From contig JAKAKG010000227.1 in NCBI GenBank assembly GCA_021813555.1, positions 1 through 38,508 on the forward strand: 38,508 nucleotides of DNA, read 5' to 3'. This document shows positions 6,334-38,160 of the stretch, in pieces. The notes below the pieces were generated by a model, which saw nothing but the letters and a program-made list of their open reading frames with translations, was not told the DNA's origin and did no database searches. Every line of letters starts with the position of its first letter. The stretch's first letter is position 1. Source of the stretch: Acidobacteriota bacterium (lineage in GTDB: Bacteria > Acidobacteriota > UBA4820 > DSQY01). The position numbers and the translations under genes are program-made.

Positions 6334-6360
6334 CTCGCGGGGTCCCTCCCTTATGGGACC

Positions 6361-6389: not shown

Positions 6390-6414
6390 GGGGTATCGTC
6401 CTATGGGTATACCA
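6367..6414. promoter_or_regulatory. Operator region: tandem 14-bp repeats and a palindrome
   Basis: AACTGTCTAAAGGT (6367-6380) and AACTGTCAAGGGGT (6381-6394) are adjacent imperfect direct repeats, 11 of 14 identical, lying over the -35 and spacer of the early promoter. A GGTATACC palindrome (6407-6414) falls on the first codons of the repressor gene. A further inverted pair GGTCCC/GGGACC is at 6341-6360. These are probable binding sites for the repressor and the Cro-like protein. Confidence 0.65.
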
Positions 6415-6846: not shown

Positions 6847-7209
6847 GTGGCTAAGTACGTCGGAGTCGCTTTGGTCTTGGCAACGCTGGCTATGGCCTAC
6901 TTGCTTGGACGAAAAAATTGGAAGTCTGATCGCCGCGGGGATGACATCTGGCGGGGCGGGTTGCTAGTGTTGCTGCTCGTTATGTGTGCCGCAGCGCCGA
7001 TTATGCTGGCAACCTCTGATCGTGATGCAGATCATATCGGGATAGTGCTTCTTCTGGGATCTGGCCTGCTCTGCGCACTTGGGGGGGCTCACAAGCGCAT
7101 CAATAGAGCCAAAGAGTGGTGCGACCTTCAGAAAAAACAAACCGGCTCCACAGAATGGCTCGGGCAGGTTGACCTAAACGAACTTTCCCAAATCTTGCGC
7201 GCCGAATGA
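6847..7209 (+). CDS. Three-span membrane protein between repressor and integrase (120 aa)
   Basis: The start is GTG 6847, with GGGGAGG upstream. Hydrophobic segments at about 3-20, 38-56 and 64-82 predict three membrane helices, followed by a soluble basic tail of about 38 residues with a WLGQVDLNELSQIL ending. It overlaps the integrase start by 4 nt (ATGA) and is transcribed with the repressor. Genes in this position are expressed in the lysogen and often give superinfection exclusion or other prophage-borne defence. That role is inferred from position only; no family is recognised. Confidence 0.8.
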   Translation: MAKYVGVALVLATLAMAYLLGRKNWKSDRRGDDIWRGGLLVLLLVMCAAAPIMLATSDRDADHIGIVLLLGSGLLCALGGAHKRINRAKEWCDLQKKQTGSTEWLGQVDLNELSQILRAE

Positions 7210-10928: not shown

Positions 10929-11138
10929 CTAAGTTTCTCTGGGAATGAAGTGCATGCAGGGTCCAGCCATGGGTTGGAGCTTCTGCCGCTGGAGGAAGGG
11001 GGGATAGTCCCACTCCTTCTCGCACAACGCGGACTGCATGGCCCCAGCCCGTTCCTGGGCCCGGCTCCTGGCCTCGTCGAACTGGTAGAATTTGCACCGG
11101 CGGCAGCACCGCTCTGGGTAGTGGGCGGGGATACTCAC
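10929..11138 (-). CDS. Small Cys-containing protein (69 aa)
   Basis: The start is GTG 11138, overlapping the endolysin stop as GTGA. Cysteines in the CCRRCKFYQ segment (residues 11-15), one at 39 and one near 61 (AGPCMHF) could bind a metal ion. The middle is helical and basic. It sits between the endolysin and the holin candidate and is presumably co-translated with them. Its function is unknown; a lysis regulator is only a guess from position. Confidence 0.7.
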   Translation of the reverse strand: MSIPAHYPERCCRRCKFYQFDEARSRAQERAGAMQSALCEKEWDYPPFLQRQKLQPMAGPCMHFIPRET

Positions 11139-11584
11139 ATCTGCCCCGCCGGCCAGCGGTAGCCAAGCACGTGATCCTTGAGGAACGTAGCGATACTCAC
11201 CCGATCCCCCTGATTTCCGCCAAGCACGTCCAGGGTGTGTTCTGTCTCAGCGACGACGAACCCCACATGCCCGGCCGTGGGGCTTGCGCCGCGGGAGAAC
11301 ACGACGATGCACCCTATGCGCGGCGCGTCAAGCACTTGGCCCCACTTGAGCCAAGAGCGCGCGGCGGCGGATTGCGGGGACTCGTAGCCCATCGCCTCCA
11401 TGCAGGCGCACGCGAAGGCTGAGCACCATGGCACCTCATCGCTCGTTGCCTTGAGGCTGGTCGCGGAGTCGTACCAGAGGATGCGCGGGTTGGCTTCTGG
11501 CCCCGGGACCTCCTCCACACCACGCGCAAGTTCGTCCCGTGCAAATTCCAACCAATCGGGTTCTTTCGTCTCAGATGCTTTCAC
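11135..11584 (-). CDS. Endolysin-like NlpC/P60-CHAP amidase, TIGR02594-like (149 aa)
   Basis: This is a likely peptidoglycan hydrolase for host lysis. The pattern W-x3-A near the start, DEVPWCSAF with nucleophile Cys54, SWLKWG at 77-82, GHVGF with His106 and LGGNQGD at 121-127 matches the TIGR02594-type phage amidases of the NlpC/P60 (CHAP-related) superfamily. There is no signal peptide, so access to the wall should need the holin candidate two genes downstream. ATG 11584 has GGAGG upstream. The length is normal for a single-domain endolysin. Confidence 0.9.
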   Translation of the reverse strand: MKASETKEPDWLEFARDELARGVEEVPGPEANPRILWYDSATSLKATSDEVPWCSAFACACMEAMGYESPQSAAARSWLKWGQVLDAPRIGCIVVFSRGASPTAGHVGFVVAETEHTLDVLGGNQGDRVSIATFLKDHVLGYRWPAGQM

Positions 11585-12307: not shown

Positions 12308-15300
12308 TCACTGGGTGTAGGCTTGGTAGGCTTTCCGGCTTCCGCCGGGGTATTGGGGCCGAAGTTTCCCGCGCACCGATGAAACCAGGTCCTTCTCCGC
12401 GATCAGTTCGGCGGGGCGTCCCTCCTTCTTCATCTTGGCGTTGTAGGCGCGCAGCTCGTCCGCCGCGGCCTTCCTGGCGGCCTGGTTCTTCGTGGCGATG
12501 GCGCCCGCGAATTTCGCGGAGAGGTCGTCTAGCTTGGAGGAGCGCCGGTCCCGCGCCGCCTTGATGTTGGCCGCCGTGTCGTACCGCTCATTCAGCCGGG
12601 TGGGCTGGAATCCCAGGGCCTTTCCGGTAGCCTCCACGGGGGAGAGTTTGAAGGGCTCCATCTTGCCTGTCTTGGGGTTCATGGCCATGTCCGGGGCGCC
12701 GCTCCGGGTCGTGGAGCCCTGCGTGCCGAGCCGAAGCGCCGCGAGGGGTGACTTGATGGCGTTCGGGGCCAGGTCCTCTACGGCACGTAGCGGCTTGCCC
12801 TCGGCCAACGATTTGGAGGCTCTCCACCCGGCACTTACCAGGCCGGCGGTGGGGCCGATGAAGAACTTGGCCAGCGCCGCCCAGGTGGCGTCCTCTCCGT
12901 TGCCGCGAACCCGGAACCCCGTGTCCGCCGGGTTAAGACTGCCGGAGATGTCGAACCCTCCCATAGCCGGAACACCCCGAAAGACGCCCCGGGCCAGCAG
13001 GGCGCTCCACTGCCTCAGTTCCTCTTCGGGGTCTTTGCCAAGCGCCTTCTGGTAGGCCCACTTGAAGGCATCTCCCGCGCCGCTCCCCATGAGTCCGGAA
13101 AGTGCTCCGGTGGTGGCGAGGTTTCGCGCCAGCGCCGCCATAGCGCTCTTATCCTTGTGCATGGCTCCGGCCATGTTCTCCATGACCCACGTCCAGTAGT
13201 GCCACTGGTAGGCTCGGAACTGATAGGGCAAGGATCCCAGCCCCCGTCCGACAACGGGACGGTCGCCTTTGGAGTAGGCGAAGTGTGCCCGGTCCACGAG
13301 CTCCAGCGCGCTTTCCCTCGCCACCTCTGGAGCCTCACCTTTGGCGCGGTAGGCCCGGAAGGCCGCCAGGAAGGTGCTCCCCCGGTTGAACTCCTCCACG
13401 GTGCCAAAGAGAAACCCGCTCACCTTGGACACCTTCTGCATGCCGAGCTTGGCCGCCTTGTAGACAGGATTCCCCGTAGTTCCCATGAGCTGGTGCTCAA
13501 GTTGGGCGCCCAGTTCGCCCGTCCCCTCCGCCCATGTCATGGCGGCGGCGTCCTCGGCGGAAAGGCCGCTCCCGTTCCGCTTCCATACGATCCAGTCCTT
13601 GGAGGCGCGGACGAGTTTCACGCTCGGGGCCGAGGTGACCTTGCCCAGCTCGGGATAGGCCATCGTGGCCATACTGGTGAGGTTAACCGAGGCGCTCTTG
13701 AGGCTTCCCCCAAGCACCATGTGGAAATTGATGGCCTTGAGGGTGGCGTACGGGTCTTTGGAACTGTCCAGGGTGTAGCCCATCCAATCGTTCAGGTGTT
13801 TCCACAGAACCGGCTGGTCCTGTTCGTTGGAATGTATCGATACGTCCTCCTTCGCGCGGCTGTAGCCGTCGAACATCTTCACCTTGCCCAGCCACCCCGC
13901 GGCGGCGGCCAGGGAATCGGCGTTCGTCCTTGCGATGTCCGTGGAGAAACCGGGGATTCCCGTGGCGCCTCCCGCCCGGTGGATGTGGTGGGCGCCGTAT
14001 CCCTTGCTCCTCACGTAGTCCAAGAGCCGGGCCTTAATGAACTTGTCCATCTCGGCGTCCAACGGCAACCCATCCAGGAAGGCGGACATCATCTTCATCT
14101 GAACCCCGGCTTTGTTCTCATAAAGGGCCGTGGCCTTGTTTCCGGTGAGGAGCATGTGGTTCTCGGGGTCGTAGGCCGAATCTTCCGCGATGGAGGAGCC
14201 CTTGCCGTCGGAGATCCACTCCCTGACCTTCTGCCGCCCCTCGGTGAGGGCCCTCATGGCGTCGTGAAATTCTCTGGGCGTCTCGTAGGTGCCAAAGAAG
14301 AGGGGCAGGGCGCCCTCCTCGGCGTCCTTGGCGTAGATCGTAATGGCATAGTTTCCGTACCGGGTATGGGGCTGGTAGTGCGGGACGTGAGAAATCCACG
14401 GGGCCACGCTCTGCCGGAAGCTGTAGGCCAGTTGCACCAGAGGGTCCGTGATGGTGACCACCGCCCACTTCCCCTTGGCTCCCTCGGCGCGCTGCATGTA
14501 GGCTACCTTGTTGGCCTTCTGGAGGATGTCCAGGTAATTCCGCGCCCCCTGCCGGGTCATGAAGGGTCTGACCTCCTTGGCGATTTCACCAGCCCGGTAG
14601 TTGGCCACGATGTTTTGGACCGCGCCGGCATCTCCCGGGCTGTCCAGAAGGTCCCGGACCATGGCCTCGGGGTTGGTGATCTCCTCCCCCCGAAGATGGT
14701 CTTTGAATCGGCTGGTGAATACCCCCAACACGTGTTGCCGGACCTGTTCATGCGCCGTCTCGATGGCCACCAGGCCCTCCGCTTCGTGGCGGCTCAGGCC
14801 GAAGCGCCTCATGTACTCGGCGGGATCTCCCTCGGGAATGTGCGTGGCGCCCTCGATCATGTAGGCGACCTGGCCCACGCGCTCCTTCTCCGTCTGGCTC
14901 AACTCGAAGAAGGGCTTGGCCGCGTCCGCGAATTCCTGGCCGCGCTGGAACTTCTCCCGTTGCCCTATTCGGTAGGCGTCCCAGAAGGGCTTCACCACCT
15001 TGGGGAACTTGCGCGCGAGGTGGCTCATCAGGGTAACCTTGGCGCCGAAGTCCCTCAGGAGCGTTTCCGTGCGAGGGGCATGGATGGGGAGAGGCACCCC
15101 AACATCCTTGGAGCGGAGTTCGGGCGGCACGTAGGTGCGTTCCTTGAGCGCCTGAAGTGGAGAGCGCACCGCCTTGGCCAGCTCCGAGAAGCCTTCCTCC
15201 GGCCGTTCGGGCAGGGTATGGGGATTCCACGGCTCCACGTTCTGGGGTTCGGGCGTCCTCGCCTGCTCGGCGGGTTTGGCCCCGGACATCTCGGCCACCT

Positions 15301-18300
15301 GGGCGCTCGTGATTTCAGGGAGCATACCTTCGGGCAGGAGTTGGCCCGGTTTGAAGTAGCCCCGCTCGTCCGTGGCCGCCTTCTTCGCCATCTCCCACGC
15401 CTTGGCCAGGTAGGGCCGCACCTTTGCCCCAAATTCCTGGAGCATGGCGCGGGACCACTCGGTAAACTTTGTCAGCCCGTTTCTCAGGTGCTCAGCCCCG
15501 ATGGTCGCGTAGTCCGCCAATACCTGGGTGGCGTCGTTCATCACCGTGGGGTCCTTGAGCCTCGCTCGGGCCTTATTCGCGGCGGTCCGGAGGGCGTCCG
15601 GCCGGACAAGCGCCTTGGCTTCGTCGGGAGAAAGCGCCTTGGCCTGTGGCCCAAAGGCAAAAAATTCCGCCGCCTTCTTGTCACCCGTGGCCTCAAGGGC
15701 TTGCCGATAGACTTCCGTGCGGGTTGTGGCAACCCCGCCATAGTTGATTAGCTCCGCGCCAGTGTTGGCGGCGGTGGAGCGTCCAGACGCAGGAACGGCC
15801 CCCGTTTCCGAGGGCCGCGTGGGGGCTGGGGAGCCTATTTCCTGTGGGCTCTCCGCCTTCTTCCCAAGTTCCGGGTAGTCTGCCAACACCTCGGGCGGGA
15901 CCGGCTTGCCCTCGGAGAGGGCGCGCTCAACATGCGCCCTACGCATCCGAAGCAATTCCCCATCCATCATGGCCTTGACTTGCTTGGAGGCACCCCTCGG
16001 GATAGGCGGCATTGTGGCCGCATATTCCTCCCGCGTCATCTGCCAGGGTTCTTTGGCGTGGGCCTGGGTTCCAGGCGGCAGCGTGCCTTGGCTTTCATAT
16101 CTAGGACTGAGTCCGTACTGTGAGGCGGCCTCTTTGATGCGCGCCTTGGTGGCCTCCAGGCCGCGATTCGCCACTATCATTTCGGCCTGAGCTATCGCAT
16201 CGGTGCGCGTCTTATCATGACCGTTTGTGATGCGAAGGCCAGTCCGGGCGTCTGAAACGCTCCACGTCCCGTCTCCGTCGCGCTGTTTTATGCCTTTTGA
16301 ATCTGCTTTGAGGCCGCCCGTCCCGTTCCTGAACACAAAGAGGTCTAGGTCTCCGGCGGGGTCTGCCGAGAGGCGCACAGGATACGCCTGTTTAACCCTT
16401 ACAAATTCGTGTGCGGGGATGAAATCAGGTTGCCCGGCGGGGCGGGGCTCTGTAGTTTTGTAGACGTAGAAGGCGCGCTCTTGACCCGGCTTGATGCGGC
16501 TGGGGGATTGAGGCGCTACTTCTGCGGCGGCGGTTCCTCCTGGGGATTCGCCGGGAAGAAGGTTCCGTCTTCCAGCTCGATTCCCTCGAACCGGTAGCGG
16601 GGGTTGTCCAGGAAGCCCTGAAGCGTTTCCGGGTGCTTGTGCGGCGGCTCGCTTGGCTTGCTTGGCGGCGTACTGGGTGGCGCTGGCGTCGGCATAGGTT
16701 GGCCCCTCTCCCATGGTGACGGAAAGCCCCTTGTGGGTGACTTTCTCGCCAGTTTCTAGGTCCGTGAACTTCCACCGCGACTTGGCCAGATCGCGCTCAA
16801 TGGCGGCCCCGATCTCCGGTGAGAAGGTAGCGCCTTCGCCGTGAAGAAGCAAGGCCACCTCGTCCCCCCCGGGTCGGCCGGCGGTGATGTCGGCTTGTCC
16901 AGTGCGCCGCCTCACCACCTCGCCCATGGTCCGGATCACGGCGTCTCCCGCGTCCTGCCCGTAGCGCTTGTTGATCTTGCCGAAGCCGTCCCCGTCCAGG
17001 AAGAGCCACGAACCTGGAAGCCTCCCCGCCTCGTGCTCGGTCCGAATGGTGGCCAGGGCGTCCGCGTTGTAGATCTGCGTCTTGGCGTCCGAGTGCGCCT
17101 TGTCGAATTGCTCTTCGGGGGTGAGCGCGTCCCAGGCTGCGCGAAGCGCCGCCTTGGCCTGGTCTGCACCCGCCCGCCGCTCGGGAGGGGGGACCGGTTC
17201 CGCCGAAAGTGGTTCCGCGGGGACCCGAATGGTGGCCGCCTGCGTGTCCGCCTGCTTCTGGGCTTCCCACAAGGGCGTCACGTCCACGGGTTCCTGGGCG
17301 GGTGTAGCGGGGCGTTCGGCACCCCGGTTCATGGCGGCGACGGTGCGCGAAATCGCTTCGAGCGAGGGCGGCGCGGGGGTTTCCTTGCGCGTGGCCGCTT
17401 CGGCCTGTGCGGTGGCCGCCGCGTCCATGGCTTCCACCTTGGCCTGGTACTCCGGCCCCAGTTCTCCCCTTCGCGCCGGTTCCTGCCACCAGGGGGCCGA
17501 TTCGTCTCTCACAGGAGCAGGGCCAGGCGGAATCTCTTGCGCCGTGGGCTCGGCCTTCCCTGAAGCGATGGCCTCCACCTGGGCGGCTTCCTCGGGACTG
17601 AAGAGCTGCTTGGGTTTAGGCGCTTCGATCCCGGTTAAGTCCTGCGGGGTAGGTCCTTTTGGCGCCCTCAGTTCGGTGGCGCGCGGTGTCTCTGCGTGGC
17701 CCGGGGCCGCAAGGCTTCGCGGGTCCATGAGCACGGGGGCGAGGCCCATCCCGGCGGCGGTGGCGATCTCCTCGGCGGTGGGCACTTCGCCGCGAAGGAG
17801 CTTATCGGTGAAGAGTTGGCCGAGCATGATGCTGGTTCCGGCGATGGCCCGCTTGCCACCGGGCAACATTTCGGCGCGCCTGAAGAGGTTGCCTACGCTC
17901 GTGTTCGAGAGGTACGCCCTGGCCGCCTCCATGCCGCCGGTGAGGGGATTGGAGGCGGTGCCGTAGGCTTGAACGGCCGCTTCGGCGCCCATGCCATGGG
18001 CCCAGTTGGGGATTGCCTGCAAGATGGCACGGCTCAGGGTGGGCGCGGCGGCGATAGCTCCCGCCGCTTCTCCTGGCACCATGGCCTCGCCCAACATCGA
18101 ATACGCGGGGAGTTTGGCGAGCATGCCCAGGGTTCCGGAGGCCACGTCCGCCACCACGTTTCCCGCAGGTCCAAGCCCAGAGGCTTTTCGGGCTTTCTCG
18201 TTCTGTCTGGCCATCTCCTGAGGGAGCTGTCGCATCCCCTGAATGGGGTGGGTGCCGTCCGGGTCCGTGAGGTACTTGCCCCACCAATCGGCACCGCCCA

Positions 18301-18610
18301 GTTTAAGGAGGCCGTTCGCCGGTGCCAGCCACCCGGCGTTGAGGTCGTGGACAGTGCGGCGCCCCACCTCGTTCACCGCAGGTCCCATTCCCTCGAACGG
18401 CACCGCCTCGGAGGTGACCCCCTCAGGAGAAGGAGAGGGGGGTGGCGTCGTGCTGCCGGGTGTGTGGGCAGGCATGAGGGGAAGGTTGGGCGTGTGCGCC
18501 GCCATGAGATTGGGCGCCGTGGTCCCCTTGGGAGGGGAGGCAAGAAGCGCGTCCAGAGCATCGGGTTGGCCCTTGGGGGGGCTGGCAAGAAGGGCGTCAA
18601 GGGCGTCCAT
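12308..18610 (-). CDS. Giant ejection-type/polyvalent virion protein with a GGDEF domain (2100 aa)
   Basis: This is probably an internal virion protein injected with the DNA. The N-terminus carries a tandem DALDALLASPPKG repeat (residues 2-14 and 17-29). Residues about 505-650 form a GGDEF-type domain: FLDGDGFGKIN (537-547), GDAV (555-558), the signature GGDEV at 581-585, a later SVTMGEG strand and YAAKQAKR. Mg-binding Asp539 and the GGDE core are kept, but the last Phe is Val, and the Asp usually following IN is Lys. Residues about 705-830 look like a polyvalent-protein-associated domain. From about 1150 on, the protein is long and helical and resembles the large phage PLxRFG-type virion proteins. 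Two smaller ejection-type genes lie upstream. Confidence 0.9.
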   Translation of the reverse strand: MDALDALLASPPKGQPDALDALLASPPKGTTAPNLMAAHTPNLPLMPAHTPGSTTPPPSPSPEGVTSEAVPFEGMGPAVNEVGRRTVHDLNAGWLAPANGLLKLGGADWWGKYLTDPDGTHPIQGMRQLPQEMARQNEKARKASGLGPAGNVVADVASGTLGMLAKLPAYSMLGEAMVPGEAAGAIAAAPTLSRAILQAIPNWAHGMGAEAAVQAYGTASNPLTGGMEAARAYLSNTSVGNLFRRAEMLPGGKRAIAGTSIMLGQLFTDKLLRGEVPTAEEIATAAGMGLAPVLMDPRSLAAPGHAETPRATELRAPKGPTPQDLTGIEAPKPKQLFSPEEAAQVEAIASGKAEPTAQEIPPGPAPVRDESAPWWQEPARRGELGPEYQAKVEAMDAAATAQAEAATRKETPAPPSLEAISRTVAAMNRGAERPATPAQEPVDVTPLWEAQKQADTQAATIRVPAEPLSAEPVPPPERRAGADQAKAALRAAWDALTPEEQFDKAHSDAKTQIYNADALATIRTEHEAGRLPGSWLFLDGDGFGKINKRYGQDAGDAVIRTMGEVVRRRTGQADITAGRPGGDEVALLLHGEGATFSPEIGAAIERDLAKSRWKFTDLETGEKVTHKGLSVTMGEGPTYADASATQYAAKQAKRAAAQAPGNASGLPGQPPLPVRGNRAGRRNLLPGESPGGTAAAEVAPQSPSRIKPGQERAFYVYKTTEPRPAGQPDFIPAHEFVRVKQAYPVRLSADPAGDLDLFVFRNGTGGLKADSKGIKQRDGDGTWSVSDARTGLRITNGHDKTRTDAIAQAEMIVANRGLEATKARIKEAASQYGLSPRYESQGTLPPGTQAHAKEPWQMTREEYAATMPPIPRGASKQVKAMMDGELLRMRRAHVERALSEGKPVPPEVLADYPELGKKAESPQEIGSPAPTRPSETGAVPASGRSTAANTGAELINYGGVATTRTEVYRQALEATGDKKAAEFFAFGPQAKALSPDEAKALVRPDALRTAANKARARLKDPTVMNDATQVLADYATIGAEHLRNGLTKFTEWSRAMLQEFGAKVRPYLAKAWEMAKKAATDERGYFKPGQLLPEGMLPEITSAQVAEMSGAKPAEQARTPEPQNVEPWNPHTLPERPEEGFSELAKAVRSPLQALKERTYVPPELRSKDVGVPLPIHAPRTETLLRDFGAKVTLMSHLARKFPKVVKPFWDAYRIGQREKFQRGQEFADAAKPFFELSQTEKERVGQVAYMIEGATHIPEGDPAEYMRRFGLSRHEAEGLVAIETAHEQVRQHVLGVFTSRFKDHLRGEEITNPEAMVRDLLDSPGDAGAVQNIVANYRAGEIAKEVRPFMTRQGARNYLDILQKANKVAYMQRAEGAKGKWAVVTITDPLVQLAYSFRQSVAPWISHVPHYQPHTRYGNYAITIYAKDAEEGALPLFFGTYETPREFHDAMRALTEGRQKVREWISDGKGSSIAEDSAYDPENHMLLTGNKATALYENKAGVQMKMMSAFLDGLPLDAEMDKFIKARLLDYVRSKGYGAHHIHRAGGATGIPGFSTDIARTNADSLAAAAGWLGKVKMFDGYSRAKEDVSIHSNEQDQPVLWKHLNDWMGYTLDSSKDPYATLKAINFHMVLGGSLKSASVNLTSMATMAYPELGKVTSAPSVKLVRASKDWIVWKRNGSGLSAEDAAAMTWAEGTGELGAQLEHQLMGTTGNPVYKAAKLGMQKVSKVSGFLFGTVEEFNRGSTFLAAFRAYRAKGEAPEVARESALELVDRAHFAYSKGDRPVVGRGLGSLPYQFRAYQWHYWTWVMENMAGAMHKDKSAMAALARNLATTGALSGLMGSGAGDAFKWAYQKALGKDPEEELRQWSALLARGVFRGVPAMGGFDISGSLNPADTGFRVRGNGEDATWAALAKFFIGPTAGLVSAGWRASKSLAEGKPLRAVEDLAPNAIKSPLAALRLGTQGSTTRSGAPDMAMNPKTGKMEPFKLSPVEATGKALGFQPTRLNERYDTAANIKAARDRRSSKLDDLSAKFAGAIATKNQAARKAAADELRAYNAKMKKEGRPAELIAEKDLVSSVRGKLRPQYPGGSRKAYQAYTQ

Positions 18611-19644
18611 CAGCGTCCTCCCGTCACCTGGTTCACCGCAGCGGATACCTCTTCAATGCTGTGGCCCATGGCGAGCGCCTTCACGGCTTTGGCGTACACG
18701 TCCGGGGGAAGTTTCCCCTTCATTACGTTCAGCGTGGCCGCGCCTCCGGGAACTTTGGCGATGGCCGCCGCCTCATCGGGGTTGCCCTGGCTCCCCTGTC
18801 CCGGTTTGTTGTAGGCCGCGACTTCTTGAGCCACCTCCTGGCGGGCGATGTCCCGGGCCTGATCGTAGGTGATGGCGTTGCCTTCCCGGTCTTGCCATCC
18901 GCCCCCCAAGGCGTCCTTGAGCGTGGCCACGCGGCTGTCAATGCGGCTTTCGACCTGAGCCGGGGTGAGGGCCGGTTTCTCGGCGTCGCGCGCGCTGCTT
19001 CGGGTCACGGCACCCGGGGGCAGGGCTAGGGGCTTACCGCCCGCTTCGGGATGCTTGGGGTCGTAGAGGATGGGGTTCCCAGAAGGGTCCACCACGCCGG
19101 GGGCCACGATGAAGCTCGGCTGGGGTGAGGCGGGGGGCCTGAGGTTTCGTGCAATCTCGGACCGGGTCTTCTCCGCCGCAAGCGCCTTGGCCTCCCGGTC
19201 CTCCTGCCATTTCTGAACCCAGGGGTACATGGCCGGGGGGATAGGGAACTGAGCCGACTCCTCAGGGCTCATACCCACCGCCGCCTTGCTTTTCTCCCAA
19301 TCTTCGAAGACCCAGCCCTTGGCGGGGTCGTGGTAGGCGCTCCCCTTGAAGTGCTCGTTGGCCACGGCGGCTTTCTCCATGGCGGCTTTGGAGCGCGCTA
19401 TCCGTTCCATCTCCTGGGCGTGCGCCTGCTGGGCTTGCCAGTTGCCCATCTCGGCCTGTTTAAACTGGGTCTCCAGGGCGGTTTGGGCGTCTTGGCGCTG
19501 CTGGTTGCGCTGTTGCAGGGCCATGGCGAGCTGTTGCAGAGCGTTCTCGCGCGTCGGTTCCTGCGTGCGCTGCCCCGCAGTGAAGGCCTCCAGGGCGCCC
19601 GCCAGGGGGCTCCTCGTGTTCTGTACGATCTCGGCCAGGCCCAT
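18610..19644 (-). CDS. Probable ejection/internal virion protein (344 aa)
   Basis: ATG 19644 follows AGGAGCCGAGC; the stop overlaps the giant gene start as TGATG. The N-terminal 100 residues are a long Gln/Ala-rich helix (QRNQQRQDAQTALETQF...). A mid region has PWVQKWQEDREAKALAAEKTR, and the C-terminal region has small helices. Such low-complexity helical proteins between the tail and the giant protein are typical of P22-like DNA ejection proteins. There is no signal peptide. The call rests on position and composition, not on a specific motif. Confidence 0.75.
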   Translation of the reverse strand: MGLAEIVQNTRSPLAGALEAFTAGQRTQEPTRENALQQLAMALQQRNQQRQDAQTALETQFKQAEMGNWQAQQAHAQEMERIARSKAAMEKAAVANEHFKGSAYHDPAKGWVFEDWEKSKAAVGMSPEESAQFPIPPAMYPWVQKWQEDREAKALAAEKTRSEIARNLRPPASPQPSFIVAPGVVDPSGNPILYDPKHPEAGGKPLALPPGAVTRSSARDAEKPALTPAQVESRIDSRVATLKDALGGGWQDREGNAITYDQARDIARQEVAQEVAAYNKPGQGSQGNPDEAAAIAKVPGGAATLNVMKGKLPPDVYAKAVKALAMGHSIEEVSAAVNQVTGGR

Positions 19645-19653
19645 GCTCGGCTC

Positions 19654-20448
19654 CTAGTTGAAAAGGCGGGTTCCGTTCTGCCCGGAGTTCCAGATGTAGT
19701 TGAGCGCGGCCGGGTTGGCGGTTGTGGACGTTCCGCCTTGGAGGCTTTTCAGGTAGGCGTCCAGGGAGCTTTGCAGGCTGTTGTTCTGCATGTAGCCGCT
19801 CAGGACGCCTCCCAGGCCGCTCAGGGCGGAGCTGTAGCCGTTCCATCGGTTGGCGTCCGCTGCGTAGAGGGCGTTGTTCGCGTCCGTGGCCCCCTGGTAG
19901 CCGCCCATGGTGTAGCCCTGCTTGAGTTGGTTCCCTTGCTGGAACACCTGCTGGAGGGGGTCGGCCAGGTCATGCCACTTCTGTTCCGTGGCCGCGTAGT
20001 TGGTCTTGGCGGCGTCTGTCGCGATGCCCGCCTTAATGGGCAAAAGAACCCGGTTCTGGCCCTCGCTCAGATCCGCGAGTGCCTTCGTGCCGATGTTCCC
20101 GTAGTCCAACCCGCGCTTGGAGATGGCGTCTTGGGTGGCCTTTTGCTGGTTCTCGAAGGTCTTGTCGTACTGGGCATTGAGTGCCTGGTACTGTAAATCC
20201 TGAAGGTCGGGAGAAATCACCTGGGGGCGTTGTCCGGCCAGCCAGGCTTCAATCTCCGGCCCGAGAAGTTTTTTCCAGCGCTTCAGGCTCCATTTTTGGC
20301 CGGGCACGGGGGTAGCCGCGAGCTGGGCCGCCAGTTTAGCCTGTTCGTTGGCCGCCCCTTCGGCGGATTTGGATTGCTGGTTGGCCGAGACGGCGCTTCC
20401 CACCAGGCCCGCTCCTGCCGCGATGGCTGCCGCTGCGATGATCGCCAT
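19654..20448 (-). CDS. Probable DNA ejection protein (264 aa)
   Basis: It starts at ATG 20448 with AAGGAGAGC upstream. The first 25 residues are Ala/Gly-rich and hydrophobic (IIAAAAIAAGAGLVGSAVSA), followed by a long helical region rich in Gln and Ala, then a Gly/Asn/Ser-rich C-terminus. This is the usual make-up of small ejection proteins (P22 gp7-like) that embed in the host membrane during DNA delivery. It is the first of three consecutive ejection-type genes. Confidence 0.8.
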   Translation of the reverse strand: MAIIAAAAIAAGAGLVGSAVSANQQSKSAEGAANEQAKLAAQLAATPVPGQKWSLKRWKKLLGPEIEAWLAGQRPQVISPDLQDLQYQALNAQYDKTFENQQKATQDAISKRGLDYGNIGTKALADLSEGQNRVLLPIKAGIATDAAKTNYAATEQKWHDLADPLQQVFQQGNQLKQGYTMGGYQGATDANNALYAADANRWNGYSSALSGLGGVLSGYMQNNSLQSSLDAYLKSLQGGTSTTANPAALNYIWNSGQNGTRLFN

Positions 20449-20459
20449 GGTGCTCTCCT

Positions 20460-20993
20460 TTACAGTCCCGCCGCCAGTTTGGCCGCCAGGTCTTCGTGAA
20501 GTGCTTGAAACGCTTCGGGGGAGGATTCCACCCGGTCAAATCTCGGGTCCACGCGCATGGCTACGAGCTGCGCGTAGCGGCACGGGTCCCACGAGCCGGG
20601 CAGAAGGTGCTCGGCAATCTGCCGCGCCGCCACGTCCTTGAAGAGGTTGGTCCAGGGAACGTGCAGCCCCGCGATCTTGTCCAGCATCCCGCCCCACCAT
20701 TCGGGCATGAGCGGGAACCCGATGCGCTGGAGGCTCGCGTTCACCTCCGAGATGGGGCGGTGGAGAATGACCTTGGGGGCTGGGTGTGTATTGAGCCAGT
20801 CCGTGTACAGCACGCAACCCGTGCACGAGAGGCCCACCCGTTTGGGCGCGTAGCTGTCCGCCACGCGGTCCAGGTCCTCCACCTTGAAGGCCGAGAGTGG
20901 ATCGTGAAGGCAGAGCGTGCGCTCCGTCATGAGCCAGTTCGCGGCCCACGTGGTGCCGCTGCGGGGCGCTCCCAGCACCATAAACCTGATCAC
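20460..20993 (-). CDS. Sulfotransferase-like P-loop enzyme (177 aa)
   Basis: The start is GTG 20993, overlapping the tail-protein stop as GTGA, with GGAG eight bases upstream; the longer reading is a shadow of the tail gene. The N-terminus MIRFMVLGAPRSGTTWAANW has the PAPS-binding loop of sulfotransferases (PRSGTTW, residues 10-16). A HRPISEVNASLQR segment (about 79-91) resembles the Arg/Ser region of the 3'-phosphate loop. At 177 residues it is shorter than typical sulfotransferases (over 250), so it may be a reduced or fast-evolving member. It could modify a tail protein or host surface glycan. Another P-loop kinase-like role is possible. Confidence 0.75.
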   Translation of the reverse strand: MIRFMVLGAPRSGTTWAANWLMTERTLCLHDPLSAFKVEDLDRVADSYAPKRVGLSCTGCVLYTDWLNTHPAPKVILHRPISEVNASLQRIGFPLMPEWWGGMLDKIAGLHVPWTNLFKDVAARQIAEHLLPGSWDPCRYAQLVAMRVDPRFDRVESSPEAFQALHEDLAAKLAAGL

Positions 20994-23900
20994 GGAGCGT
21001 ACTCCAGGTAGAGTTTGAAGGCGCCGCTCTTGGCTGGGACGGGCGTCCCGCCCGCCGGGTCCAGAATGGCGAGGTGGCTCGGGCTCAGGAGCAGGGTGAT
21101 GTCCTTGGGAGAGATACGGATGTTCACTCCCTTGGCCGTGGTCCCGTCGATCATGATAGCCTCGGCGGGGAGCTGCCCCATGAAACACATGCTGGGCGTG
21201 TTGGCCGTGTTCTCTTTGTAGAGGATGGAGCGGCCCCAGATGGAGCGAATGGGTCGGCTCTCTCCGGTGAAGGTGAATTTCTGGGAGCACTGCGAGGCGT
21301 CGAAGCTCAGCCGGGCACTCCAGGGCAGTTCATGGATGCGCGTCCCCGCCTCCCCGCCGATGTTGGTCCGCTTGCGCACGAGGGGCGGCGCCCCAGCCGC
21401 CCCGGTCCAGATGATGGCCAGGAGCATGGAGGACGGCGTGGAGATCCCGCCCAAGGTCCCGGGCGTGTCCCGCAGGTCCGGATCGTCCAGCCAGATCCCG
21501 AGGTGCACCCCCGCCGCGAGGGTGGCGGTGAGGGCGTCTTGCAGGACCACCGTACCTGTAGCCGCGTCGAAGTGGGTTAGGTAGAACTCGTTTCCCGCCT
21601 GATCTCCGTCCAGAACCACGCAGTGGGCGCCGAGCGCGGGCGTCCCCGCTGGGACCTGGAGGATGAAGGTGGACTCATTCGAAGCGCTCTGAACCGTGCC
21701 CACCACATATTCATCGCTCTCCTTGTCCGAGGGTCCAACCGCCGTGCCCGTCAGGGGAATGAGCGTGAGCACCAGGCCGCTGTCATAGGTGGCCCGGATG
21801 GCGTAGGCCGAGGTGGGGGAGAAGTAGGTGGTGGCCGTTTCGGGCAGACGGTGCTCCGTCACCGCAATTTCTCTGCCCATCATCCTGATCTTTCCGTTCC
21901 GCACCGCGACGGCGCCCCCGCTTCCGGAGTCCCCGGAGGGGGCCACTTCTACGCCCTCCTCGGAGGGGAGGGTCACGTTCCAGGCAGAGTAATTCTCCGA
22001 GGCGGCCACGTCCCCCTTGATGGCTTCGATGTCCGTCGCAAACTTTTTCAGGTCAGCGAACAGGCTTGAGGTCTGAGGGCTGAGGGAGCTTCGGATCTTC
22101 TGGGGCCCGATGTTGGCAAATTCGGAAATCTGTTGGTCTGAGATGTTCGTCATGTAGGCCAGCAGCGCCACGAGGTCAGACCAAATCCCCTCCGCGTCCA
22201 CGCTCATCATCTGCCCGCTTTCAACGTTTCTTGGGCGGTAGGGGAGGATGGGGTATGTGGGAGTGACGGTGGCGCCGATGAAGTTCTTGCCCGTGAGGTC
22301 CGCCCCCGCCATGGTCACGTCCATGGCCACCGGGGAGAACCGGTATCCCGCCTTGAGGGGATAGAGCGTTACCAAGCCGTCCGGAACATCGGCTAGGTGG
22401 TACGTACCGTAAGCGTCCGTGCTGGCCGAGAGGGTTCCGGACACCACGTTGACCCCCGGCAGGGCGGCGCCCCCGGCCCCAGTGATGGTGCCCGAGATCG
22501 TGTGGCCTGTTCCGGTGGGGCCTACGGTGACAGCGCCAAGAAAATCGATGCCGGTCCGGTCCGCTCCAGCCACGCTCACGGCACGAGAGCTGGGCGTGAA
22601 CGTGTAGCCGGACCGCACGGGGGTGAGGGTGTAATCCCCGTCAGGCAGTCCCGGCAGGATGAACTGGCCCAGCGCGTCCGAAGTGGAGGTCACCCCGCCG
22701 GCCGAGACGGTTACTCCGGAAATCACGCCGCCCGTTTCCGTCCGTATGGTTCCAGAAATCGAGTGGGATCCCGCCGCCGCCGTGGCAGCGAAGTTGATTC
22801 CCGTCACGTTGGCGCCCGCCAGAGTGACATTGGTCAGAACGGGGGTAAAGGTGTAGCCGTTCAGGCTCGGAGTCACCGCATACGTGATGTCGTAGCAGTT
22901 CTGGATGGTGTAGTTCCCGGTGGCGTCGGTGATGGCGCTCAGGCCGTTCCCCGCGTTCACCAGGACACCCTCCAGCGCGGCCCCGTCAATCGTCACCCGC
23001 CCGGAGATGCTGTGGAGGTAGGTGCCTGCTCCGGTGGCGTGGAAGTCTTGGTTCGGGATGCTCAGAGTGGTGACCGTGACGGAGCGGGACAGCGGTTCCC
23101 AGTTGGTCCCGGCGGCGGGGCGGATGGTGTAGCTTCCCGCGGTCAGGTGGTCGAAGGTGTAGAGGCCGTTCTGGTCGGTCCATACCGAGCGGGATTCGGT
23201 TCCCTCCATGATAATGAGCATCCCGGACATTCGGGTGACCCCGTCCGTGTCGTACAGGGTCCCCGTGATCTGATAGATGCCGGCGGGCGCGCCCACGAAG
23301 TTCTGGTTGATGAGGGGCGCCGTGAGGTTGGCGATGTAGAGGTAGGACGGGGTGAAGATGTAGCCCCCGCACGAGGGTGTGAGGGTTTGGGGCCCGGGAG
23401 CCAGGGAAAGCTCCCAGTAGCCGTCCGCGCCGGACATGCACTGGTCCATCCCGTTCGATACGTAGACGTAGGGAAGCGGCGTTCCATCCCCGAGCCGGGT
23501 ATACCCGGAGACGAGGATTCGGGTCGGCGCGGCGTAGCCCGTGAAGTTCACGCCGGTGGCGTTACTCCCCGCGAGATTGACGGCGGTGGCGGCGGGCTGG
23601 TATTGATAGCCGCCGCTGTAGGGGGTGACGATCCACGCCCCGTCTACCAGGCCGTTGATGGTGTAGTAACCATCGGCGCCCGTCGTGGTGTTGTTGCCCT
23701 GGGCGGGGTTTCCAGCTCCAGGGTCGGCGGTGACGGAGACACCGGAAATGGGCGCGCCACTGCTGTCCTGCACTCTCCCCGAAATGGACCTGGCAGTAAC
23801 CACCGGCGTGGCCACGAAGTCCTGTCCCGAGGCGTCCGCGCCGCTGATGGTTCCCGCGCGGGACGCGGGAGCGAAGGTGTATCCGGTCAGTTCGCAGGCG

Positions 23901-26656: not shown

Positions 26657-27382
26657 CTACAGCAGAGGTGAAATCCACGGGCTCACGATGACGCTCTGGT
26701 CCAGGATCATGGCGTTGTAATCTCCCAGCGCGCGCTGGTACATGGCCTCCGCGAGCTGGCGCTGCATTTCCCGCTCCCGGGTGTCAAAATCCTCGGCGCT
26801 GCGCATGGCGCGCCAGAGGCACCACTGTTGTGCGGCGTCGATCAGCAGGGCCGGGATGGGGACCAGGGCGGTGTCCTGGGATGTGGGATCAATGGCGCCT
26901 TCGCTGGTCCAGCCGGGAGGCTCCACGGCAGCCAGGGGCCAGTACCATATTTCCAGGGTGGCCGCTTGGGCGGGCGGGGGATGGAGCAACAACCCCGTCT
27001 GGCCCGTGGAGAGGGGAGCTACGGCAAAGGCGAGGGGCGTGCCCGGAGACAGACCTGGGTTCTGGTCCCGCTCGTAGAGGATCGCCTCCTGGGTGGTTGG
27101 GGCCAGCACCCGGCGGGAGTTGTCAGGAGAAAGCACCTGTACCCGAACGAGGCGGGTCGGCTCGAAAGGCAGCGTCACCAAGGCCGCCCCGGCGGTTACG
27201 GGCACCGACCTGAAGACGCCTGAGTCTGGGTCTTGCGCCAAGGGGATGTCTACGGCCAGCTTGCGCACGAACCGCACGAGGTAGCCGAAGAGGCGGCGGT
27301 CCGGCCACCGTTCCACGAGGGTGGTCTCAGTGGATCCTCCGAGGTCCTCCCGGATCCCGTCGAAGAACTCTGCCATCAGCAT
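26657..27382 (-). CDS. Head-tail adaptor-like protein (241 aa)
   Basis: ATG 27382 has AGGAGCCCCCC upstream. The product resembles phage adaptor/connector proteins: an N-terminal helix, a beta region in the centre (FRSVPVTAGAALVTLPFEPTRLVRV, LEIWYWPLA), then helices (LIDAAQQWCLWRAMRS...FDTREREMQRQLAEAMYQRALGDYNAMI) and a short C-terminal strand. Position just before the nozzle-like gene supports this. No catalytic or metal motif is seen. Confidence 0.75.
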   Translation of the reverse strand: MLMAEFFDGIREDLGGSTETTLVERWPDRRLFGYLVRFVRKLAVDIPLAQDPDSGVFRSVPVTAGAALVTLPFEPTRLVRVQVLSPDNSRRVLAPTTQEAILYERDQNPGLSPGTPLAFAVAPLSTGQTGLLLHPPPAQAATLEIWYWPLAAVEPPGWTSEGAIDPTSQDTALVPIPALLIDAAQQWCLWRAMRSAEDFDTREREMQRQLAEAMYQRALGDYNAMILDQSVIVSPWISPLL

Positions 27383-33921: not shown

Positions 33922-35802
33922 TTAGGCTCCTTGGGGTTGAGCGAGGGCCAGCGTTGGGGGCCCGCCCAGGGTCATGCCCGGTCCCACGGGTGGGCCGGGA
34001 GGTACGGGGCCCGGAAGGGGAATGGCTGCGCCCGGTGGTAACTCCTGCGGAGGGGCGGGCGCCGTCGGCGGCGCCTCGTTCGCGACGAGGTCCGGGTCCA
34101 GGTGCTTGACTTCGGCCACTCTCCGGAGCGCCTGAACCACGAGGGGCTGGGCTCCCGCCTTCTGTGCCACCTCGATGAGCCCCATGAGGTCCATGGCCTC
34201 GGCCTGGTCGTCCACCCACGTGGATCCGCTCCGCAGCTCCACCTCCAGGTCCGTGTCAAACGTGTCGGGGCTGATCAGGTAGAACTTGCCATCCTCACTC
34301 TGCCAAAACAGGGGAGGTTCGCCCGCCTGGTAGACGCCCTTGATGGCCTCCGCGCTCATGTTCACGTAGAGGCGAAACGATCGGTGCATCTCGGGGTCAA
34401 TGCTCTCCGCCGTGAACCTGAACCGCGAATTGCTCTCAGCCTGGAGGTTGCTCACTTCGCCGAGGGTGTTGGAGTAGGTCCGCGTGGTCACGCCCGCGCT
34501 CATGGGGGAGACCCCCGTATAGAGCGGGTGTGCTGAGCGGATGTACTCCAGGTTCGCCTGGTGGGCGGTGGTGGGAGGGTCCACGTCCAGCCGGTGCATG
34601 ATGTCCTTGATGGACGCGCCGTTGAGTTTTGCAAACCGCCATTCCGAGGGCCGGAAAGGTCGCCTGAGTACCCGGGCGAGGTCGCCGGACTTGGAGCTGT
34701 CCACGATGCCGCCTCCCAGCACAGAGAGGCCGAACTGCCGCAACATGAGGTTCACGTAGGTGTTCGTGGCGTCCTGGCCGTCCTCCAGCAGATCCGCAAA
34801 TCCGATGCCCGCGCATCCCCATTCCGACGGAGAGCGCAGGCAGACCAGCTCCTGGAACGGAATTTCTCCGTGGCCGTAGGGTCTCACGGAAACCTTGAGC
34901 AACTCCTCGCTCGGTCCGTCCGCGGTGCACAGGGCCAGGATGCGGGACATGACCGGCTTTCCAGCGTCCTGCGCGTCCCCTCCAAGCTCCAGATTTTCGA
35001 TGGCTCGCAGGTCGTAACGGCCATGATATTCCAACACGTGGACGGTCCTTCGCTCCAACTTGGGGCGGTCCGCGTCCAGCGTCGTGTCCGGCGTCTCATG
35101 GGCGGCCTGGTCGATGGCCTTCTCACAATCCGGAAAGAGGGCTACCGCCTCGCTCTTGGAGTACCACCGGTCCAGGATTCCGTACCTCGCGGTTCTGATT
35201 TTCCGGCTCATGGGGTCCGAACGCCACTGCCACGGACGGATGGAATCCACTTGGGCGCGCGGGTACTGATCGTCGTCCGCCTCCCGGTGGCCCATGATCC
35301 CGGTCCCAAAGATGCACATGTTCAGCAGTCCGTCCCGGTATTCGCCCTGGAGGTCAGCATGCCGGAATGCCCACAGCAGGTATTCCTCGGCCCCCCTCAG
35401 GCTCACGCCCCTAATCTTCTGTTTGAGGGGGTCCGGCGGCGCGCCCCTCACCACGCGCGGTTGGCGCAGTGTGAAGGGCTTTTTGGGCGCGAGAAACGCC
35501 TCATTCAGCCGGGTCATGATCGTCTGGATGTGATAGAACGTCTCTTTCCAGTAGAGTTTGCCCCCGCCTCCCGATTCCTGCACGGTTTTCATGGCCGTGG
35601 CGCTCGCCCCCAGGTCCCGCCAGAACCCGTCAAACGTGGCTGCTGGCGTGGCCCCTGTGGGAAGCGCCTCTTTGTCCCAGGTGTAGTGCCCCCGCCACGC
35701 AGCCAGGAACCGGGCCCACCGTGCAATACGGAGTTGGAGGTCCTGATCCGATTCCTGATATTGGCGAGAGAGCAGATCGAGCAGCTTCGGCGTGGCTTTC
35801 AT
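33922..35802 (-). CDS. Portal protein, podovirus type (626 aa)
   Basis: It overlaps the large terminase stop as TGATG. The long helical N-terminal region (SRQYQESDQDLQLRIARWARFLAAW), a beta/wing centre (VHVLEYHGRYDLRAI, HGEIPFQELVCLR) and a crown helix region (NTYVNLMLRQF) resemble P22-like portals, and the length agrees. The C-terminal 60 residues are Pro/Ala-rich and probably disordered, perhaps a barrel or terminase-contact region. It forms the dodecameric channel for DNA packaging and ejection. Confidence 0.85.
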   Translation of the reverse strand: MKATPKLLDLLSRQYQESDQDLQLRIARWARFLAAWRGHYTWDKEALPTGATPAATFDGFWRDLGASATAMKTVQESGGGGKLYWKETFYHIQTIMTRLNEAFLAPKKPFTLRQPRVVRGAPPDPLKQKIRGVSLRGAEEYLLWAFRHADLQGEYRDGLLNMCIFGTGIMGHREADDDQYPRAQVDSIRPWQWRSDPMSRKIRTARYGILDRWYSKSEAVALFPDCEKAIDQAAHETPDTTLDADRPKLERRTVHVLEYHGRYDLRAIENLELGGDAQDAGKPVMSRILALCTADGPSEELLKVSVRPYGHGEIPFQELVCLRSPSEWGCAGIGFADLLEDGQDATNTYVNLMLRQFGLSVLGGGIVDSSKSGDLARVLRRPFRPSEWRFAKLNGASIKDIMHRLDVDPPTTAHQANLEYIRSAHPLYTGVSPMSAGVTTRTYSNTLGEVSNLQAESNSRFRFTAESIDPEMHRSFRLYVNMSAEAIKGVYQAGEPPLFWQSEDGKFYLISPDTFDTDLEVELRSGSTWVDDQAEAMDLMGLIEVAQKAGAQPLVVQALRRVAEVKHLDPDLVANEAPPTAPAPPQELPPGAAIPLPGPVPPGPPVGPGMTLGGPPTLALAQPQGA

Positions 35803-37430
35803 CAGAAGCCCATCCTCTCGGAGAATTCCGGCTCAGGTGCGGGTTCGAACGCTTTGGGTTGGTAGCCGTGGCGTACGTCGTCGGTGGAGGGGATGGGCCC
35901 AAACGCCAATAGATCGGCCGCGCAGTCCCCGATGTCGTCCTTGGTTGCGCGCGGGAAGGTCAAGGCGAATCGTTCCCACGCCGAAAAGAAGGCTTTTTCC
36001 TGAGGGTTGAGGTCCGGGGCTTCCGGGTCCCTGGTGAGAATGAGCCCCCGCTTGATAGGCCCGTCCAGTTGCCAAAGTCTGTCGAACTTCCTGGTCTCGC
36101 GCCGCTTGATGGGTACCACGTTGGGTAGGTAGTAGCCCCGGCGCTCTCCCTCATGGCGTATCGCCTCATCGAAAAACACGGCCATGCCGATTTCTTCAAT
36201 GTAGGTCGTGGTGCCGTAGCTCCGCTGCAAGTCGTAGAGGTAGCTGGCAACCCACGACGGGGCCGCGTGGCCGTCGAACCCTGAGACGATGCACCTCCGG
36301 CCATCTGGGAGCACGGCGGCCAGCATGACCGAGAGGTTATCTTTGCCCCGCTCCGTGGCGAGGTCTACCGTCACCACAAAATGAATGGGCGGCTCTAGGA
36401 TGCGCGGATCGTAATACCTCTGAACCTGAGCCTTCGTCCACGCCGCCAGCAGGGCGGAGGGGATGGTGAGCTGCATCTGCGTGGCAAATTGCCATGGGCC
36501 CATCCCATCCTCATCGGCCTGGATGGTAGCCGGGGGTTTCACCGAGGGGAACACGCACGCGCCCAGGGGCAGGCCGAACGGGTTATCCGCCTCCTGGTAG
36601 ACGGCGTCTACGCGGATCGGGTGCCGCTCCACGCGCCAGCCCTTAATGCGTCCCTCGAAAATCTTCACGTGGGTATCTTCGGGATCCCAGAATGTACCTC
36701 TGAGGAACGTCTGGGCGTGCACGCCCGCGCGGAGCGATCGGATGTCCCGCAGCTTCGCGTCCGCCTTTTCGACAGCCTCCGGGGTCTCAGTGCTCCGGCT
36801 CTCCACCACGTCATCCAGCCCGAGCACGTCGAAATGTTTGCCGGCTGGGAGCGACTCCAGGGAGAACGCCAGCACCGTGGCATCGTGTGAGGCGGAGGAC
36901 CTCAGCACGGTGAATTCCGCCTCCGTCCATTTCTCGGCATCGTCCGGCCGCGCCGGCACTACCTCGGGAAATAGGGCCCGAATCCACGGGTCCTGGAGGT
37001 TGCGCCTGATCGCCCGGGTGATGGCCTCCGCCACGCCGAGCTTCCAGGACCCCACGCCGATCCTGATCTCAGGATTCCACAGAATCCTGCGGGTGAACTG
37101 GATTTCCTCCAGCGCAGTTTTGTATGTGCCTCTTGGCTGGAAAATAGCGACCTGCACTGCGGGGAGTTTCTCGTACTCTCGTATCCTGTGCGCCATGAGG
37201 AGGTGGATCTCGTCCCAGGGGTGGCTCTCGTCGTCGTAGCCGAGCAGCCGCGCCAACACGTAGAGGTCTGCCCTCACGGCGGCGCGTAGATACCCCTTGA
37301 TGGCTTCCCACTGCCCCCCTTCGGGGGCGCGTTCCCAGGCCTGCACGATGGCGCTAACCAGAGAGCGGTACTCGGGCCAGCGTACGGGGTCAGGCAGGCG
37401 GAGCCCGCCGGGGGACACGATCTCAGCCAT
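35802..37430 (-). CDS. terL: Terminase large subunit (542 aa)
   Basis: This is the packaging ATPase and nuclease. Walker A is QPRGTYKT (98-105), Walker B is FDVLGLDDVVE (about 200-210). The RNase H-like nuclease domain begins with VVTVDLATERGKDN (Asp356, Asp364) and has the C-terminal acidic pair in KDDIGD (about 498-502). The Walker A has Tyr in place of the usual Gly or Ser before Lys-Thr, which is a mild variant. ATG 37430 overlaps the small-subunit end by 8 nt. It should form the motor on the portal. Confidence 0.95.
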   Translation of the reverse strand: MAEIVSPGGLRLPDPVRWPEYRSLVSAIVQAWERAPEGGQWEAIKGYLRAAVRADLYVLARLLGYDDESHPWDEIHLLMAHRIREYEKLPAVQVAIFQPRGTYKTALEEIQFTRRILWNPEIRIGVGSWKLGVAEAITRAIRRNLQDPWIRALFPEVVPARPDDAEKWTEAEFTVLRSSASHDATVLAFSLESLPAGKHFDVLGLDDVVESRSTETPEAVEKADAKLRDIRSLRAGVHAQTFLRGTFWDPEDTHVKIFEGRIKGWRVERHPIRVDAVYQEADNPFGLPLGACVFPSVKPPATIQADEDGMGPWQFATQMQLTIPSALLAAWTKAQVQRYYDPRILEPPIHFVVTVDLATERGKDNLSVMLAAVLPDGRRCIVSGFDGHAAPSWVASYLYDLQRSYGTTTYIEEIGMAVFFDEAIRHEGERRGYYLPNVVPIKRRETRKFDRLWQLDGPIKRGLILTRDPEAPDLNPQEKAFFSAWERFALTFPRATKDDIGDCAADLLAFGPIPSTDDVRHGYQPKAFEPAPEPEFSERMGF

Positions 37431-38037
37431 CCTCGTTCCCCTTCGCCGCCTTGAGCCGCTTGGCCCAGGAGGTCACCGAGGAGAGTAGTTCCTCCATGGG
37501 CACCGGACACGTCACCTGGGCCTGGAGGGGGCGCCCCTGTTCATCCTCGAACCGGACCACGTCCTTGAGCGCCCCGTAGTGGCGGAGGATGGTAGACATG
37601 GCTTTTAATTTATCGTGGGCCTCAACGTCCAGGCGGGAGATTTTCACTCCGTCTTTTTCTAGGGTCGTGAGGCGGAATTTTTTGAGGACCGATGTGGGCA
37701 GGTCCTTGAGGTCCTTGACCTTGATTTGGTCGCCCACCTGTTCTAACACTGACCCCAGGTCAAAGAGCGCTATTTGCTCGGCTTCCCGGACGATGGCTCC
37801 CACCTTCACGGCGGTGTCTTTGGTCACTGCCGCTTCCAGTTCGGCTATTTTGTTGCGGCATGCAACATCTTTAAACGCTCTGGAGCCCAGGGTGTGGGCT
37901 GAGGCCACGGAAAACCCCGCACGGATGGCCGCTTGCGTGATGTTGTGGTCTAGAACATATTCACGCGCGAACGCATCCAGCCGTGCCTGTTTCTGGTCCG
38001 GGCTCGGCCCGCGTTTTTTGGTCTTCGGTTTGCCCAT
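37423..38037 (-). CDS. terS: Terminase small subunit (204 aa)
   Basis: The start chosen is ATG 38037, with GGGCGGATC upstream; a longer reading from 38136 would begin inside the predicted promoter and is rejected. Residues 10-60 (SPDQKQARLDAFAREYVLDHNITQAAIRAGFS...GSRAFK) match the DNA-binding N-terminus of Terminase_2 small subunits. The middle is helical and the C-terminus is basic. It should recognise the packaging site, probably near the noncoding region at 38040-38500. It is the first gene of the late operon, downstream of a promoter and an intrinsic terminator. Confidence 0.9.
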   Translation of the reverse strand: MGKPKTKKRGPSPDQKQARLDAFAREYVLDHNITQAAIRAGFSVASAHTLGSRAFKDVACRNKIAELEAAVTKDTAVKVGAIVREAEQIALFDLGSVLEQVGDQIKVKDLKDLPTSVLKKFRLTTLEKDGVKISRLDVEAHDKLKAMSTILRHYGALKDVVRFEDEQGRPLQAQVTCPVPMEELLSSVTSWAKRLKAAKGNEDG

Positions 38038-38046
38038 GATCCGCCC

Positions 38047-38077
38047 AAAAAGAAGGGGCCCGGAATCCCGGGCCCCT
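38047..38077 (-). terminator. Intrinsic terminator in the late leader
   Basis: A 10-bp GC stem AGGGGCCCGG/CCGGGCCCCT (38054-38077) with a 4-nt loop is followed on the minus strand by TCTTTTT (38053-38047). It sits between the promoter at 38132-38160 and the small terminase start, so late transcription should stop here unless it is antiterminated. Confidence 0.8.
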
Positions 38078-38131
38078 CTGACTGAGATGCTGCAAGGTGT
38101 CTCGCCGTGGTCACACTGCTCGATCATGGTA

Positions 38132-38160
38132 ATCATAGCGTTTCACGAGGCACGTGTCAA
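38132..38160 (-). promoter_or_regulatory. Late promoter (consensus sigma70, leftward)
   Basis: On the minus strand TTGACA (38160-38155) is followed after 17 bases by TATGAT (38137-38132). The predicted start is near 38125, about 50 nt upstream of the terminator hairpin and about 90 nt upstream of the small terminase start. With the terminator it forms a short leader unit like the lambda late promoter and its terminator. Confidence 0.85.

Follow-up and report, generated by a model that had tools for sequence, protein, structure and literature searches.

Introduction

GGDEF domains have been reported in polyvalent proteins by Iyer et al. 2017, with a prophage of Acetonema longum as an example, and cyclic-nucleotide signalling or interference with host nucleotide responses was proposed as their function (PMC5512222). 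Two giant phage proteins, DarB of phage P1 and gp69 of phage JC1, are present in virions (PMC9024508, PMC9144972), and DarB contains a capsid-targeting signal within its first 30 residues (PMC9024508). Stand-alone GGDEF proteins of phages are already annotated in public records, among them a separate protein of Myxococcus phage Mx1 (WNM70324.1, record OR576727) annotated as 'nucleotide cyclase'. In the literature we found no experimental test of phage-injected enzymes acting on cyclic-nucleotide signals of the host. Here we analysed a stretch of 38,508 nt (the window), which is an entire contig of a metagenome-assembled genome of 3.3 Mb and 98.6% completeness, and in which a GGDEF domain lies inside a giant prophage protein of 2100 residues. 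Apart from the named phages, all contigs used for comparison were of metagenomic or draft-assembly origin.

A giant gene in the late operon of a temperate prophage

The contig (C29) holds a temperate podovirus-like prophage. The temperate phage was marked by genes for a repressor (6190-6825) and an integrase (7206-8195) on the plus strand. On the minus strand we found the large and small subunits of the terminase (35802..38136), a SU10-like portal protein (33922..35802; PF23899, 37.2 bits with a cut-off of 30, and a PHROG portal match), a SU10-type adaptor protein (26657..27382; PF24175, 60.4 bits) and, downstream of the giant gene, a phage lysozyme of 149 aa (11135..11584; phrog_1259, 7.7e-34, endolysin families). 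The giant gene itself (12308..18610, minus strand) lies near the end of the late operon as an intact open reading frame of 6.3 kb with its ATG at 18610, and its product matched both NF032893 and PF00990.

Directly upstream on the same strand follow a gene for a 344-aa protein (18610..19644), whose stop codon shares one base with the giant gene's start codon, and a gene for a 264-aa protein (19654..20448) with an Ala/Gly-rich hydrophobic N-terminus. An earlier note on this DNA had described both as ejection-type genes. Their position and make-up fit this description and they are possible ejection proteins, but neither matched any family in our profile searches.

Seven carboxypeptidase-regulatory-like (transthyretin-type) repeats were found in another product of the late operon, a 1203-aa protein (20990-24601) that may serve as a fibre or in decoration. 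Two adjacent tail-fibre-like genes (28601-29431 and 29428-30690) were observed to have a common hydrophobic N-terminal stretch ending in QTGPxGGxYPS, together with a VPYTGATSDLNLG motif.

In the host genome we counted approximately 20 GGDEF matches, 7 EAL and 7 PilZ domains. Thus a target network for c-di-GMP is present in the host.

The PLxRFG tail and exchange of the front end

The C-terminal part of the giant protein, residues 1412-2081 (670 residues; 12368..14377, minus strand), was identified as a PLxRFG/tail-700 domain by NF032893 with 208.1 bits, the cut-off being 100. A model of this domain gave no significant match in the PDB. The same tail is common to about 80 viral contigs, and in the PLxRFG proteins of SopranoGao, Itty13, PEp14, F116 and others it was 20-38% identical to that of the 2100-aa protein. 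In a second genome of the same genus (G007, contig C264) we found the same tail, at 35-39% identity, on a 2409-aa protein whose front end is ddrB-ParB and contains no GGDEF domain. As the same tail is paired with a different front end within one genus, we concluded that the 2100-aa protein is a polyvalent protein with a swapped-in module: unrelated domains are joined in it and exchanged between relatives, and its gene lies near late virion genes. The suggestion of a giant ejection-type protein was borne out in this form, as a PLxRFG/tail-700 polyvalent protein of the late operon.

Another segment, residues 1014-1077 (15380..15571, minus strand), is common to other giant phage proteins such as JC1 gp69 and PEp14, with 33% identity to JC1 gp69 over 67 columns (E 2e-6). 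A Pfam search detected no methylase, helicase, SNF2 ATPase, metallopeptidase or ART domain in the 2100-aa protein. Close relatives of the whole protein were not found in scans of viral and genome contigs, which used short peptide patterns and miss distant members.

The combination of this tail with a GGDEF domain appears to be rare: a profile that finds the 2100-aa protein easily detected no GGDEF domain in 8911 open reading frames from 80 PLxRFG-tailed IMG/VR loci, the G007 contig and four phage records. Most of the IMG/VR loci span 10 kb upstream of the tail, and in some of them the locus ends within the giant gene.

A GGDEF domain with a broken inhibitory site

The earlier note had placed a GGDEF domain in the front half of the giant protein, and two of the checks that it proposed, a profile search and a structure prediction, confirmed this. 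Pfam GGDEF (PF00990) matched residues 505-638 with 45.1 bits (E=1.2e-11; cut-off 23.8), and NCBIfam TIGR00254 matched residues 505-654 with 43.4 bits (cut-off 37.4). The prophage domain also reached 80 bits against a profile made solely of other GGDEF domains. The AlphaFold model, for which the prophage domain and seven relatives were used as input, reached a pLDDT of 80 and a pTM of 0.69. When this model was compared with the PDB using Foldseek, the best 50 structures listed were all GGDEF/diguanylate cyclase structures (best E 4e-9, probability 1.00, TM 0.5-0.66). The profile score, the fold search and the retention of conserved sites ruled out a chance or compositional match. Judged by its sequence profiles and predicted fold, the region of residues 504-659 is a true GGDEF domain; its residues about 505-651 are encoded at 16658..17098 (minus strand).

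All motif positions given in the earlier note were correct: FLDGDGFGKIN at residues 537-547 (16970..17002), GDAV at 555-558, the GGDEV active-site hairpin at 581-585 (16856..16870), SVTMGEG within 625-637 and YAAKQAKR ending at 654 (AKQAKR at 16649..16666), all on the minus strand. K650 and R654 of the last motif are presumably the phosphate-binding lysine and arginine positions, after PleD. From the PleD numbering combined with the alignment, we take N547 and D556 to be the equivalents of the guanine-reading N335 and D344, and G544 to stand at the position equivalent to K332. The final Phe of the GGDEF motif is usual, not obligatory.

In the alignment the residues D539, D541, F543, N547, G555, D556, R579, G581, G582, D583, E584 and K650 were kept, so the GGDE core and the metal-binding Asp (D539) were in place as claimed, as were both guanine-reading positions. 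The Asn at the position equivalent to N547 reads guanine (PMC12657218). When bacterial GGDEF domains of the same order and of other origins were aligned with the prophage domain, 17 columns showed a conservation of at least 95%; the prophage domain kept 14 of these and 29 of the remaining 151.

Several positions were changed. The Lys of FKxIN was replaced by G544, which adjoins K545; the alignment also verified K548 in place of the Asp after IN and V585 in place of the last Phe. With Gly at the K332-equivalent position and Val at the end of the motif, the domain may have only weak cyclase activity or none. The F-G and I-N-K changes also recur in related phage domains. At the inhibitory site (16889..16900, minus strand), the alignment with the order's bacterial GGDEF domains showed the Arg of RxxD to be replaced by G571 (G571-x-x-D574); the RxxD that defines an I-site-regulated diguanylate cyclase is thus broken.

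The 120 bases directly after the GGDEF domain (16551-16670) have an 88% identical copy elsewhere in the same genome (G000:C155:7704-7823). The copy lies in a reading frame broken by a stop, with a tRNA-Thr(cgt) gene approximately 0.9 kb away, and we read it as the remnant of a related gene.

Related GGDEF domains in other phages

A PLxRFG match was found in 4 of 396 genomes of the host phylum, in two of them above the cut-off. A second polyvalent protein with a GGDEF domain was found in another family of the phylum (L233; G389:C29, 2-9427). This protein of 3142 aa, whose reading frame is open at the 5' end, combines a GGDEF domain (27.2 bits, cut-off 23.8) with a helicase of the strawberry-notch type and an Erm-like methylase match; its PLxRFG-like tail scored below the cut-off. 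Its GGDEF domain with flanks was 31% identical to that of the prophage over 263 alignment columns (E 4e-9), which indicates that two polyvalent proteins of the phylum carry related GGDEF modules. Both have DGDxxGxINKxYGQxxGD. A scan of IMG/VR with this pair of proteins found no relatives.

In phage Mx1 and in the viral loci L055, L061, L188/L189 and L221 the GGDEF gene lies between the genes for a head protease-like protein of approximately 1200 aa and the major capsid protein (phrog_752), with one or more extra genes in the same interval. The Mx1-like cassettes were located at L053 608-8709, L055 5313-13718, L061 5714-13624, L188 5436-14149 and L221 5619-15352. Their GGDEF domains were 32-35% identical to the prophage domain, and most have FGxINK. 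In L053, L055, L061, L188 and L221 the head protease-like and the major capsid proteins were also observed to share a segment of approximately 25-65 residues within each phage.

A third context was found in YuA-like Pseudomonas phages and Bordetella CN1-type phages, where a small GGDEF/SGDEF gene without an I-site stands immediately before antirestriction genes (L234 5055-6030 in PaSz-4, GGDEF protein QAX99436.1; L235 3950-5541 in Bordetella CN1). These proteins matched L233 with E-values down to 9e-13 and the prophage domain weakly (E about 0.001). RxxD was broken in all related phage domains examined, partly by reading of the alignment: the Arg was lost in the prophage domain and the YuA-like proteins, the Asp in the Mx1-like ones. 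Many further GGDEF matches in 'Bacteriophage sp.' fecal records and in IMG/VR were set aside, as they resemble bacterial sensor cyclases of approximately 300-700 aa.

In a phylogenetic tree the prophage domain was placed outside the GGDEF clades of its host, beside the Mx1-like and some planctomycete domains. It formed the longest branch (3.19) and the support for the phage grouping was 60/49; because this support is weak, we do not claim a clade with the Mx1-like domains. The domains may possibly have a single phage origin. That the prophage domain was recently captured from a GGDEF protein of the host was not supported, since it fell outside the host clades, although its position on such a long branch is unsure.

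A duplicated N-terminal peptide

At the N-terminus of the 2100-aa protein an exact duplication of DALDALLASPPKG was found, with the two copies at residues 2-14 and 17-29 (18524..18607, minus strand). A duplicated peptide within the first 60 residues was present in 31 of 44 giant phage proteins and in 11 of 80 control open reading frames from the same loci; nearly all 44 are PLxRFG-tailed, JC1 gp69 was added for comparison, and the rows are not independent. The peptide is specific to each phage, for example FSYEDAF, NPFDQFD, LKPFSGELD, EWWKQGA or SEIDDILKGAP, and in the G007 protein LPPGFTWDD is present in three copies. Loci with a tandem N-terminal peptide include L039, L094, L118, L121, L132 and L141. 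Given the capsid-targeting signal in the first 30 residues of P1 DarB, it is a reasonable guess that the duplicated peptide is a candidate packaging signal. This reading is by analogy only, because DarB itself was checked and has no N-terminal duplication.

Possible roles at infection

We propose that the 2100-aa protein would be a late product, packaged in the head of the temperate podovirus-like phage and ejected together with the DNA. Its front half would be an exchangeable cargo section, here with the GGDEF domain. GGDEF enzymes need dimers; after entry the domain would bind GTP and, as a dimer, make c-di-GMP or a related cyclic dinucleotide. With the inhibitory site broken, synthesis would proceed without product inhibition and would locally push the c-di-GMP network of the host at the start of infection. 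We give this reading a probability of about 40%. In the literature we found no virion proteomics for a protein with exactly the PLxRFG C-terminal domain, and JC1 gp69, for which there is virion mass spectrometry, is not direct evidence for packing since it does not have this domain.

In another, rather less probable reading the GGDEF domain is catalytically silent and, within the packaged giant, binds GTP or c-di-GMP as a sensor, a sponge or a protein-docking module. Bacteria commonly have silent GGDEF domains, and the GGDEV ending, the replaced Lys of FKxIN and the long branch in the tree would all be in agreement with such a function. Yet the residues required most directly for catalysis were kept while the rest of the domain diverged (14 of 17 against 29 of 151 columns), and with its I-site lost the domain is less likely to be a c-di-GMP receptor of the kind that uses this site. 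We consider it unlikely that the domain is instead a counter-defence enzyme, which would make or mop up a cyclic nucleotide and thereby confuse nucleotide-based immunity of the host, not steer its c-di-GMP behaviour. Such defence and phage counter-defence do exist (PMC12657218), and interference with host nucleotide responses was part of the proposal of Iyer et al. (PMC5512222). The antirestriction genes adjoining the distant relatives in YuA-like Pseudomonas and Bordetella phages point in this direction, as does the joining of GGDEF to a methylase and a helicase, domains typical of polyvalent proteins, in L233. Gene neighbourhood is weak evidence, however, and the base-reading Asn points to GTP and to c-di-GMP, the ordinary product.

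That the protein is not delivered at all seems improbable to us. It would then be expressed in the lysogen or producer cell, or be left over from a decaying prophage, and the GGDEF domain would have no part in entry. The contig is metagenome-assembled, and the degraded fragment of a similar gene (C155; 88% DNA identity over 120 bases) would suit such a decay. The 6.3-kb reading frame is intact in the late operon, however, the terminase, portal, adaptor, lysozyme, integrase and repressor are all present, and relatives were found in free viral contigs and cultured phages. The preferred reading, delivery of an active cyclase, has a more general and doubtful extension: phages may have their own GGDEF family of feedback-free cyclic-dinucleotide synthases, built into the virion or encoded beside antirestriction genes and delivered or made early, which PLxRFG proteins would carry by means of the duplicated packaging peptide. 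Since relatives occur in cultured phages of Pseudomonas aeruginosa, Bordetella and Myxococcus and share the loss of the feedback site, the question whether phages inject such enzymes is directly testable in laboratory systems. If delivery of an active cyclase is true, phage particles would set a second messenger of the host, or blunt its nucleotide-based immunity, before phage genes are expressed.

Comparison with known systems

The prophage domain has the fold and the active-site layout of PleD, DgcB, DosC and other bacterial diguanylate cyclases. It differs from them in having no sensor domain and no I-site, in its GGDEV motif and in being very divergent. The stand-alone GGDEF proteins of phages (Mx1-like phages, YuA-like Mesyanzhinovviridae, and the Bacillus phages G and SP-15) are small separate proteins of 152-386 aa; those of the Mx1-like and YuA-like phages have, like the prophage domain, the GGDEF core and a broken I-site.

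Among the giant proteins, membership of the DarB group was rejected, because the methylase and the SNF2-type helicase are absent from the 2100-aa protein by Pfam; JC1 gp69, one of the DarB-like giants of the Bcep22/JC1 group, has no PLxRFG C-terminus. The Acetonema longum protein WP_004096050.1 likewise has a GGDEF domain inside a giant prophage protein encoded near virion genes. Unlike the 2100-aa protein it also contains SNF2 ATPase, DNA methylase, metallopeptidase and ART domains, and L233 is closer to this layout. As GGDEF polyvalent proteins were reported by Iyer et al. 2017, the 2100-aa protein belongs to a previously described type. What our analysis adds to this type is that a GGDEF domain is paired with a PLxRFG tail of full length, that the phylum has a second GGDEF polyvalent protein, that the I-site is broken in three phage contexts and that the N-terminal peptide is duplicated; no paper describing these points was found in the partial library searched.
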